Notes under the pieces: model-generated
Database searches by the model: none
Seen by the model: the letters and a program-made list of their open reading frames with translations, nothing else
Told to the model about the DNA's origin: nothing
Shown here: piece after piece, positions 6,493-55,118 of the stretch
How positions within the stretch are numbered: the stretch's first letter is position 1
Layout of the letters: each line of letters begins with the position of its first letter
Source of the DNA: Pleurocapsa minor HA4230-MV1
GTDB lineage: Bacteria; Cyanobacteriota; Cyanobacteriia; Cyanobacteriales; Xenococcaceae
DNA length: 64,000 nt
Reading direction: 5' to 3'
Assembly: GCA_019359095.1 (NCBI GenBank)
Contig: JAHHHZ010000019.1
Coordinates: 62,001-126,000, forward strand
Made by a program: the position numbers and the translations under genes

Positions 6493-6559
6493 ACTTGGGG
6501 ACTTAGGGACTTGGGGACTTGCCCTAAAGGATACCGCTTCGCGTCGGGGACTTGGGGAC
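6493..6559. repeat. Octamer tandem array split by a short dispersed repeat
   Basis: Units of ACTTGGGG (one ACTTAGGG) run from 6493 and again from 6550. Between them is a 25-bp piece, about 6522-6546, of the form CCCTAAAGGATACCGCTTCG. Removing it rejoins ACTTG to GGG and restores perfect 8-base phase. The same repeat family occurs at 9757, 31709, 36050 and 55050. Confidence 0.75.
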
Positions 6560-6663
6560 TATCTATTTGTATCATTCTTATTTGTATTTCATATTGAACT
6601 CAAAATCTACTCGCGGATTATTTTCTCGAAGCATATTACAATTACTCGAAAAGGAGATAATTT

Positions 6664-7680
6664 ATGGCGGTTCAACTTCAACAGGCAGTTACAGTCGGCA
6701 AATACCTAGTTACCCAACGTTTGCTGGGGCGGAAGCATTTTCCCTTAGTTTTAATGCTAGAGCCTCTGTTTCGCTGCAATTTAGCTTGTTCTGGCTGTGG
6801 TAAGATTCAGCAGCCAACGGAAATCTTAAAGCAAAACTTAACTCCAGAGCAGTGTTTTGCAGCAGTAGCAGAATGTGGTGCGCCAGTGGTTTCGATTCCT
6901 GGAGGAGAGCCACTGCTACATCCTCAAATAGATGAGATTGTTGAGGGGTTGGTACAGCGTAAAAAGTTTGTTTATCTTTGTACGAACGGCATCTTGCTGG
7001 AGAAAAGTCTGAATAAGTTTAAGCCTTCTCCCTATCTTACCTTTAGCGTTCATCTTGACGGACTACAGGAACAGCATGACAAGTGTGTCGATCGCCCAGG
7101 AGTTTTTGCTAAAGCGATCGCCGCGATCAAAGCCGCTAAACAGCAGGGATTTAGAGTAACCACCAATACCACTGTCTTTGAGGGCGCAAATCCGCAAGAA
7201 ATGCAGGAATTCTTTGATTTCTTGGCTACTCTTAATCTTGATGGTATGATGGTTTCTCCTGGCTATGGATATGCCAAAGCACCCGACCAAGAAAACTTTT
7301 TACAGCGAGAGCAAACCAAAGCTTTATTTAGAGAAATCTTATCTCCTTGGAAATCTGGTCAAAAGAAATGGAATTTTAATCATAACCCCCTATTTCTCGA
7401 ATTTCTGATGGGCGATCGAGATTTTGACTGCACTCCTTGGGGAAGTCCCAGCTACAGCGTTTTAGGGTGGCAGAAACCTTGCTATCTCTTAGATGAGGGA
7501 CACTATTCTAGCTATCAAGAACTGATTAAACAGACCGAATGGAGTAACTACGGCAAAAAAAGCGGTAATCCTCAATGCCAAGACTGTATGGTGCATTGTG
7601 GCTACGAACCCACCGCAGCTACCGTAGCAATGCAGCCCGAAAATATGGGTAAAGCGATCGGGGCTTTATTTGATTACTGA
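6664..7680 (+). CDS. hpnH: Adenosyl-hopene transferase HpnH (radical SAM)
   Basis: 338 residues, the usual size. HpnH joins the 5'-deoxyadenosyl group of SAM to diploptene/hopene, the first step towards C35 extended hopanoids in the membrane. The radical SAM cluster motif is CNLACSGC (Cys38, Cys42, Cys45), followed by [10 protein letters not shown] (SAM-binding GGE) and YLCTNGILL. The C-terminal SPASM-like part ends in [15 protein letters not shown] strong ribosome binding site (AAGGAGA) precedes ATG 6664. No other hopanoid gene is in the window, so it stands alone here, as often in cyanobacteria. Confidence 0.93.
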
Positions 7681-7693
7681 TTACTAATTGCTG

Positions 7694-7728
7694 TTCATTG
7701 CTCATTGCTCATTGCTCATTGTTCATTG
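7694..7728. repeat. Heptamer tandem repeat (YTCATTG)x5
   Basis: Five phased heptamers, TTCATTG/CTCATTG, fill most of the short gap between two converging genes. Such short tandemly repeated heptamers are common between cyanobacterial genes. Confidence 0.85.
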
Positions 7729-7733
7729 CTGTA

Positions 7734-8138
7734 TCAGGCAAGGTCAAGGTAATCGGTAATCACGGCATCTGCTTCCATTTCTACCAGCATTTCTGGAGCA
7801 ATTAGGCGCTGAACTTCTACCATACTGGTGGCGGGACGAATCTTAGCGAAGAATTCATGATGAGCTTTGCCGATCATTTGCCAGCGATCGATATTGGTCA
7901 CATAAATCCTGGTACGGACTACATCTTCTAGACTTGCTCCAGCGAGATTTAAAGCAGTTTCAATATTTTTGATAATTTGTTTGGTTTGGGCATAGGGATC
8001 CCCTATACCGACAATTTCACCATGTTCATTGGTGGCAGTGGTTCCCGAAACATGAATATAGTTATCGAGCTTGACTGCTCTAGAATAGCCTACTAGATCT
8101 TCCCAGGAAGAGTTGCTGCTGATATTAATTCGTTCCAC
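7734..8138 (-). CDS. Rid family protein (YjgF/YER057c), non-archetypal subgroup
   Basis: 134 residues covering the whole Rid fold: [15 protein letters not shown] near residues 30-44, [19 protein letters not shown] in the middle, and [21 protein letters not shown] near the end. True RidA proteins hydrolyse reactive enamines/imines with an arginine in the motif PARSxVEV. Here that position reads PATSMVEV, so the arginine is a threonine. Enamine deaminase activity is therefore doubtful, and a related Rid subgroup with another substrate is more likely. It converges on hpnH and is transcribed away from miaB. Confidence 0.85.
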
Positions 8139-53935: not shown

Positions 53936-53978
53936 TCGCTAAAAATAATAATTCTGATTATCTATATCTCTATATAAT

Positions 53979-53991
53979 AATGATTATCATT
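53979..53991. promoter_or_regulatory. Zur/Fur-type operator between the flavoprotein gene and hemB
   Basis: AATGATTATCATT, a perfect 13-base palindrome (odd centre). It lies 29 bases before the hemB ATG and 44 before the flavoprotein start. The core matches the known Zur and Fur box form (GATAATGATTATCATTATC). The zinc-related neighbours favour Zur. A looser copy lies just left, around 53945-53962. Confidence 0.75.
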
Positions 53992-54019
53992 CTAATTAGC
54001 CAAATAGTAATGAGGCTTT

Positions 54020-55024
54020 ATGACTTCTAACCAGCAAAACGCTAAACATCTCGCTTTACACCACCGTCCTCGTCGTCTCCGTCGCACAGCATCCTTACGG
54101 CGTATGGTGCAGGAAAACCAGTTGACAGTTAACGATCTGATTTATCCTGTCTTTGTCACCGAAGGAGAAAACCAACAAGTAGAAATACCTTCGATGCCAG
54201 AAATTTATCGTTATTCTCTCGATTTACTCCTCAAAGAAATAAGCGATGCTGCTAATTTAGGGATAAATGCGATCGCTCTTTTTCCTCTAATTGCCACAGA
54301 CAAGAAAGATAATCAAGGTACAGAAAGTTATAATCCCGATGGCTTAGTTCAACGTACTGTAAGAGCCATTAAACAAGAAATACCCGAAATTACTGTAATT
54401 ACTGATGTGGCACTCGATCCTTTTTCTACCTATGGTCATGATGGGATCGTCCAAGACGGCAAGATACTTAACGATGAAACAGTAGAAGTGCTGGTAAAAC
54501 AAGCAGTCTCCCAAGCTGAAGCAGGTGCAGACATGGTAGCTCCTTCCGATATGATGGATGGTAGAATCGGTGCAATTCGTCGAGGTTTGGATGCTGCTGG
54601 TTACTTGGATGTTGGTATTCTGGCTTATTCCGCGAAATACGCCTCAGCCTATTATGGCCCTTTCCGCGATGCTTTAGAATCTGCCCCTCAATTTGGCGAC
54701 AAGCAAACCTATCAAATGAATCCTGCTAATGGAAGAGAAGCAATTAAAGAAGTAGCCTTAGATATTGCTGAAGGTGCAGATATTGTGATGGTTAAACCAG
54801 CCTTAGCATATTTAGATATTATTTATCGCCTTAAAGAATATACCAACTTACCCGTTGCTGCTTATAACGTTAGTGGAGAATATGCCATGATTAAAGCTGC
54901 TGCTGGACAGGGTTGGATTGATGAGAAGCAAGTGATTTTAGAAACTCTGATCAGTATGAAACGGGCAGGGGCAGATGTAATTTTGACTTATTTTGCCAAG
55001 CAAGTGGCTTTGATATTGCAGTAA
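54020..55024 (+). CDS. hemB: Delta-aminolevulinic acid dehydratase (porphobilinogen synthase)
   Basis: 334 residues. It condenses two aminolevulinates to porphobilinogen on the way to haem, chlorophyll and bilins. Schiff-base lysines are in [18 protein letters not shown] and [13 protein letters not shown]. The metal region reads [16 protein letters not shown]: Asp replaces the Cys triad of zinc enzymes, so this is the Mg-dependent, zinc-free type seen in cyanobacteria and plants. A GAGG ribosome site stands just before ATG 54020. A Zur-type box in its promoter suggests zinc control; it could be the only hemB or an extra copy. Confidence 0.94.
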
Positions 55025-55041
55025 TCTAATTAAAACTCGCG

Positions 55042-55118
55042 CAAAGACGGACGCGAAGCTGACGCGAGCTTGCGAGCTAACCCTTTAAAGAATCCTTTAG
55101 GACAAAGACGCAAAGACG
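55042..55118. repeat. Octamer array (CAAAGACG) split by a short dispersed repeat
   Basis: CAAAGACG at 55042-55049, then 53 bases (55050-55102), then CAAAGACG twice (55103-55118). The 53-base piece, read on the minus strand, begins TCCTAAAGGATTCTTTAAAG and ends CAGCTTCGCGTC, so it has the same ends as the repeats at 6522 and 9757. Removing it joins the octamers in exact phase. Confidence 0.8.

Follow-up and report, generated by a model that had tools for sequence, protein, structure and literature searches.

Short dispersed units in tandem arrays and genes of Pleurocapsa minor and related cyanobacteria

The small dispersed repeats (SDRs) of Nostoc and related cyanobacteria, which Elhai and colleagues reportedly described in 2008, are units of 21-27 nt that occur in many copies. 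They are said to lie inside heptameric arrays and minitransposons and to be nested, and SDR4 to SDR6 reportedly possess a conserved secondary structure with compensatory changes. To our knowledge, the way in which units of about 24 nt move has been open ever since. Here, we describe a superfamily of units of this kind in Pleurocapsa minor HA4230-MV1 (Xenococcaceae), starting from a stretch of 64,000 nucleotides (assembly GCA_019359095.1, contig JAHHHZ010000019.1, positions 62,001 to 126,000 of the forward strand), which we refer to as the window. One of its families, family A, has a 24-nt core unit (YCCTAAAGGATACCGCTTCGCATA) and, as comparisons of orthologous sequences support, behaves as a mobile unit that was recently active. 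We consider it probable that these units are small dispersed repeats that are copied and inserted precisely, without duplication of the target, and that survive where the harm is slight.

The likeness to SDRs concerns unit size and copy number (family A, 24 nt with 25 exact copies in the genome; family B, 23 nt with 27 copies in the loci examined there), but also the occurrence in heptameric arrays, the nesting, the presence of blocks resembling miniature inverted-repeat transposable elements (MITEs) and recent filled and empty sites. The differences are that the units occur in another cyanobacterial family, that in-frame insertions in genes are frequent, and that family A prefers G/WNG (the slash marks the insertion point) and not the highly iterated palindrome HIP1, into which SDR5 is precisely inserted according to a passage of PMC4390886. 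For a Nostoc intron, parts of PMC3488679 and PMC4476775 likewise mention insertions in the region of its heptamer repeats. Of the kinds described, SDRs are the closest by size, context and nesting, while the host family, the target and the frequency of in-frame gene insertions differ. A text search with three strings of the element, which excluded the 2008 SDR paper, matched no paper.

Other described elements resemble the units in single features. Repetitive extragenic palindromic (REP) elements and REPINs, with their REP-associated tyrosine transposases (RAYTs), are also short, dispersed, of a hairpin type and without coding capacity, as far as passages of PMC3116915, PMC3733652 and PMC6006769 go; the first of these names SDRs, the second untagged cyanobacterial repeats, and the third treats Y1 subclasses. 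However, no GTAG or CGTC tag stands beside the palindrome in our case, and the variable flanks have only a G at position -1 in common. Rickettsia palindromic elements, which in excerpts of PMC10969869 are about 150 bp long, encode a conserved peptide and lie in frame in unrelated genes, are similar in this last respect, whereas the unit described here has just 24 nt, and four of its six frames are open. With MITEs, the units share a non-autonomous and dispersed nature, and MITE-like blocks host some of the arrays, but the units have no terminal inverted repeats (their ends are YCC and ATA) and no target duplication.

Filled and empty sites and the distribution of the unit

The evidence for mobility comes from pairs of orthologous loci, one filled and one empty, that are set apart by one gap of 24 nt where the unit lies. 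(Loci and genomes are cited by their numbers, L and G, where they have to be told apart; G000 is the genome of the window, 5.64 Mb in 36 contigs.) Five such pairs were found among the loci compared (L025/L113, L150/L176, L163/L102, L176/L103 and L116/L119), and two further ones between copies of the own genome and genomes of the same genus (L003/G011 and L011/G002); the gap length was verified as 24 nt in all seven. The contexts vary: the unit lies in open frames at L025, L163, L176, L003 and L011, in a heptamer array at L116, and in no frame of more than 47 codons at L150. Other gaps of 1-6 nt occur within 60 nt (120 flanking bases) in L116/L119, L003/G011, L011/G002 and L176/L103, and two base differences stand beside the junction in L025/L113. 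A target-site duplication was looked for in the seven pairs and none was seen. Larger nested insertions exist as well, one of about 45 nt in L007 that is absent from G002 and G005, and one of about 75 nt in L008 that is absent from G003 (sizes read off the alignment). The tiny mobile unit that a preliminary description of the window had proposed is supported by these clean differences.

The own loci in this comparison were 20 of the 30 copies, taken with their flanks, of which 16 were compared and 13 aligned. Not aligned were L014 and L018, with one matching flank each, and L013, and L001, L004, L022 and L026 were not followed up. L010, the first window locus, was compared separately, the relative of L025 came from the comparison of fetched loci, and L027 was skipped in one comparison of relatives because its core differs.

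Within the own genome, the pattern CCTAAAGGATNNNNCTTCGC retrieves 30 copies, 15 per strand, as against none for the reversed pattern, and a looser form of the pattern retrieves 160 as against 2 for its control. The exact 24-mer is present in 21 of 388 genomes of the order (G000 included), all 21 among the 27 of the own family and none among the 361 others, and the 13 genomes of the same genus have between 0 and 36 exact copies each. Among the at least 80 named-collection loci listed, those with the ACCG core come from Pleurocapsales-type cyanobacteria (such as Xenococcus, Hyella, Pleurocapsa and Waterburya); matches in other phyla, which differ at the four free positions, look like chance. One viral contig in IMG/VR and two Chondrocystis plasmids carry the unit, and there is one weak match in Pseudomonas. 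Two species (L065 and L075) also have a unit of the family-A type in a UvrD-like helicase gene, kept at one and the same site, with flanks that are about 87% identical.

Family A belongs to a superfamily of units of about 21-25 nt, in which a common 5' module, YCCTAAAGGR, is joined to a variable 3' module. Its sister units include family B (TCCTAAAGGATAAGCTTCGCAAA, 23 nt), family C (TCCTAAAGGATACACCTTCGGATA, 24 nt) and types D, E and F, the bounds of the last three being less well defined. They were surveyed in 188 distinct contexts in own loci, a set partly chosen by the 5' motif.

Target sites, arrays and genes

At 68 non-redundant family-A sites outside arrays and other units, position -1 is G in 57, position +1 is A or T in 66, position +3 is G in 43 and position -2 is other than G in 67. 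This amounts to a loose preference for H-G/W-N-G, shown for family A only. As a separate observation, the first unit base, for which only T and C were admitted, is associated with the base after the unit: among 104 non-redundant sites, T-T occurs 64 times, T-A 19, C-A 14, C-T 5, C-C once and C-G once (Fisher P=5e-5 on the first four classes). With other bases admitted, 157 copies, duplicates included, begin with T in 124 cases, with C in 32 and with A in one. We dropped the idea of a 1-nt duplication at T targets, since the unit is often followed by A and then itself starts with T or C.

The preliminary description had also suggested that the unit targets, or survives in, short tandem repeats. 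A loose test finds 13 of the 30 own copies to bridge a tandem repeat and a strict one finds nine, compared with 1.9% and 0.38% of background positions (284 kb). After weighting by a target matrix trained on 62 sites from other genomes, 0.67 and 0.10 array copies would be expected. The loose count includes two weak period-6 matches (L006 and L014), and the enrichment is not corrected for intergenic position. Eight of the 13 lie in one heptamer, TAGGTAG, and in one phase, two of them (L021 and L024) with common flanks. The enrichment in arrays is more than a by-product of the target preference, and still most copies are found elsewhere, 17 of 30 by the loose test or 21 of 30 by the strict one, some of them nested in sister repeats and some in genes.

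Insertion of family A into a gene adds eight codons, and two sense and two antisense frames of the unit are open. Open reading frames (ORFs) of at least 150 codons hold 20 of 99 non-redundant copies, 16 in sense and four in antisense orientation. Genes are depleted in family-A copies, since about 75% of the background bases fall within stop-to-stop ORFs of at least 200 codons. Among own loci, open frames hold eight of 26 family-A copies and none of 27 copies of the frame-shifting, 23-nt family B (P=0.002). A Pfam scan of 16 unit-bearing ORFs returned matches at E values of up to 0.001 for 15 of them, L176 being the one without; the hosts, some of them weakly matched, include DNA polymerase III alpha with an intein, a GAF protein, a UvrD-like helicase, AMP-binding enzymes, Uma2, GNAT, TnpB and several transposases. 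In the DnaE ORF of L008, the unit stands in frame in the intein part, within the insertion of about 75 nt mentioned above; this assignment rests on a stretch that matches an intein profile below the cut-off of that profile. In Chondrocystis sp. NIES-4102, a 30-nt match of 93% identity underlies an annotated P4-type primase. The unit is therefore neither restricted to arrays nor strictly non-coding, and the preliminary description of it as non-coding and targeted to arrays holds only in part: most own copies lie outside arrays, some stand in frame in genes and others are nested.

Loci of the window and the turnover of arrays

The window itself holds five loci of interest, and the motif CCTAAAGGA occurs nine times in it, as against a mean of 0.69 and a maximum of three in 100 shuffles. 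At the first locus, an octamer array (GACTTGGG, left part at 6492..6521; arrays are given without strand) is interrupted by a plus-strand variant of family A, CCCTAAAGGATACCGCTTCGCGTC(G), at 6522..6546, which measures 24 or 25 nt depending on the choice of boundary; the array resumes 3' of it. At the second, a family-B unit of 23 nt (9757..9779, plus strand) splits a CAGTAAT heptamer array whose left part spans 9733..9756 and which resumes at 9780. The third is a TAGGTAG heptamer array (left part at 31688..31708, resuming at 31868) around a plus-strand composite of 159 nt (31709..31867) with at least four recognisable units, all on the plus strand: CCCTAAAGGGTTAGCTTCGCGTC of the D/E type at 31727..31749, a family-B unit with the loop variant GCTCCGC at 31756..31778, a 24-nt family-C unit at 31794..31817 and a further family-B unit at 31826..31848. 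In one possible reading, this composite is a family-A unit whose two parts (31709-31718 and 31854-31867) have been separated by other units, 135 nt in all. The fourth locus is a composite block with inverted YCCTAAAGGA motifs at its bounds (36056..36152, no strand). At the fifth, an octamer unit CAAAGACG (55042..55049, resuming at 55103) precedes a composite of 53 nt on the minus strand (55050..55102), in which YCCTAAAGGA is the sole motif recognised.

This agrees with the preliminary description, which had placed such units inside 7- or 8-base arrays at four loci, in opposite orientation at 55050, and had found no array at the block near 36050; both the sequence and Tandem Repeats Finder bear out the latter. 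With a score of at least 40, this program lists three of the four arrays, and the CAAAGACG array was read from the sequence. The array phase, too, is restored when the inserts are excised, with matches between left and right array unit of 6/7 at 9757-9779, 7/7 at 31709-31867 and 8/8 at 55050-55102; at 6522, the originally chosen 25-nt cut (6522-6546) gives 8/8 and a 24-nt cut 4/8. What did not hold is the notion of one shared unit, as the inserts are a variant of A (6522), a B unit (9757) and composites (31709 and 55050). An Rfam scan of the window found one tRNA and no family at the unit loci.

Comparison with relatives shows that the arrays turn over. At the third window locus, the TAGGTAG array is found again in G005, where it holds a different composite, and is missing from G002. 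At the first and second, the compared relatives have neither this array nor the unit, and G003 has another heptamer array at the first; downstream of the gene shared at the fifth, the sequence differs among the four relatives fetched. Elsewhere, L023 carries one A unit in G000, four B units in the same array in G005 and another heptamer in G002. G002 and G005 lack a block, which we read as MITE-like, that carries array and unit at L005 and L020. At L015, L017, L019, L021, L024 and L027, the aligned relatives are without the unit, and the sequence between the genes gives no clean alignment. One repeated flank in G000 is found with no unit (L219), with A (L022), with B (L187 and L230) and with composites (L247 and the window). 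Since the relatives mostly lack the array or cannot be aligned, the empty arrays expected in close strains come down to one clean case, L116/L119; other relatives are without the whole array or have another unit.

Some further repeats were seen in passing. A longer composite repeat of the block at 36056-36152 recurs, without an array, at L029 and L030 of the genome. Two copies of a MITE-like repeat in the window (32816-32938 and 57416-57510) are 94% identical over 82 nt; both hold CTACTTC-type heptamer arrays without a unit, and in the blocks of similar kind at L005 and L020 there is a family-A unit in addition to an array.

How the units may move

In the explanation that we find probable, a unit would be copied and then inserted precisely and without target-site duplication, family A preferring H-G/W-N-G. 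Insertions would persist where they do little harm, that is in short tandem arrays, in earlier copies, which gives rise to nesting, and, in the case of family A, also in genes if the frame is kept; the arrays may in addition supply repeated good target sites. As arrays turn over by slippage or recombination, the embedded units would be multiplied or exchanged. The process presumably involves a trans-acting enzyme that works on a single-stranded DNA or an RNA form of the unit. Several points weigh against this explanation. Neither an enzyme nor an intermediate was found (Y1 transposases were examined; no search for reverse transcriptases was made). The whole array is missing from the relatives at most of the array loci, and insertion into a pre-existing array was directly seen just once (L116/L119). 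The direction of a gap is by itself no proof of gain over precise loss, and of the eight TAGGTAG cases, some could be due to recombination between arrays. Other families with units of 24 nt have no copies in open frames (C 0/9, D 0/4), and the insertions of family A in genes can therefore not be put down to unit length alone. Finally, the consensus units of six families, folded as RNA and as DNA, have weak energies for A, B, D, E and F (RNA at best -1.8 kcal/mol), and C alone folds well (-4.5 to -6.6 kcal/mol).

There are nonetheless hints of a DNA mini-hairpin, for which the folding energies are weak. Mini-hairpins with a GNA triloop or a TTTA loop are known for their special stability. Most of the variation in the 3' module falls on its middle base: of 40 matches in G019, 38 have the sequence GCTNCGC (N being T in 20, C in 14 and A in four), which is GC-GNA-GC on the other strand; a paired change, CCTTCGG, occurs in family C and in one G021 match, and one unpaired change, CCTTCGC, is also found in G021. 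Compensatory pairing of the outer bases of YCCTAAAGGR was considered and dropped, because CCCTAAAGGA is common. Whether these 24 nt alone constitute a complete transposable cassette, recently moving in one cyanobacterial family, into arrays, genes and an intein and with no duplication of the target, by a chemistry that would be undescribed and might proceed via single-stranded DNA with two mini-hairpins (GNA triloop and TTTA loop), is a tentative idea that we rate as rather doubtful.

Y1 (HUH) transposases act without target duplication and recognize small hairpins, and such an enzyme, either an IS200/IS605 TnpA or a RAYT, might mobilize the unit in trans, in the form of single-stranded DNA, along the lines proposed for REPINs. 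The absent target duplication and the small hairpins, including the GC-GNA-GC module with its paired change, fit this chemistry, and RAYT-like genes are present in G000. We keep this alternative because of two palindromes, GGCTAAAGCC and CCCTTTAGGG, that lie in G009 at about 1960-2020 of L271, at most about 70 nt downstream of a RAYT-like ORF; the latter is the motif of the 5' module. Yet both RAYT-like genes that are intact in G000 (L278 and L279) lie in loci of 3.4 kb devoid of CCTAAAGG, and Y1_Tnp (PF01797) occurs in all 27 genomes of the family, including the six without exact family A. Its match counts show no correlation with family-A counts (Spearman -0.06 over 27 genomes and 0.09 over the 13 of the genus), as is also apparent from single genomes, with two matches for 32 copies in G003, one for 15 in G009, one for nine in G011 and 43 for none in G015; as a driver, the Y1 transposase was rejected on these grounds. 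The weak Y1 proteins of G000, G009 and G011 differ, in our reading, in type. Passengers of IS200/IS605-type elements have a fixed target of 4-5 nt at the left end, whereas the target preference is loose here, and the CCTTCGC change is unpaired. Taken together, we regard a Y1-driven movement as unlikely. RAYT-like Y1 proteins as such were observed at L278 and L279 (contig G000:C11), L271 and L272, and G011 has one with an internal repeated stretch.

Movement through an RNA intermediate and reverse transcription has reportedly been suggested for the SDRs of Nostoc. A slight excess of sense-strand copies in ORFs (16 of 20, compared with 53% expected; P=0.02) would be consistent with it, but may reflect selection; the RNA folds of all families except C are weak, and no Rfam family covers the window loci. 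We consider this route possible, if somewhat unlikely. Spread without transposition, by homologous recombination or gene conversion among arrays or by duplication of larger, unit-bearing repeats such as MITEs, is in line with the eight of 13 array copies that share TAGGTAG and its phase, with the common flanks of L021 and L024 and with the MITE-like blocks of L005 and L020, absent as they are from G002 and G005. A single phase is, however, also predicted by the G/WNG preference, and the clean 24-nt differences in unrelated genes outside arrays argue against recombination as the sole mechanism. As such it is improbable; as a secondary process it is likely. A chance or low-complexity artefact, for which nothing was found, is refuted by the shuffles, the reversed-pattern controls and the orthologue pairs, and its probability is negligible.

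Precise insertion of a copied unit stays the explanation that we favor, and family A lends itself to its study, as it offers empty and filled sites that are exact to the base, a defined target preference and 13 genomes of one genus that vary in copy number. For the cyanobacteria concerned, family A provides a route for adding eight-residue peptides to proteins, and the units may be one reason why heptamer arrays between genes turn over in these genomes.

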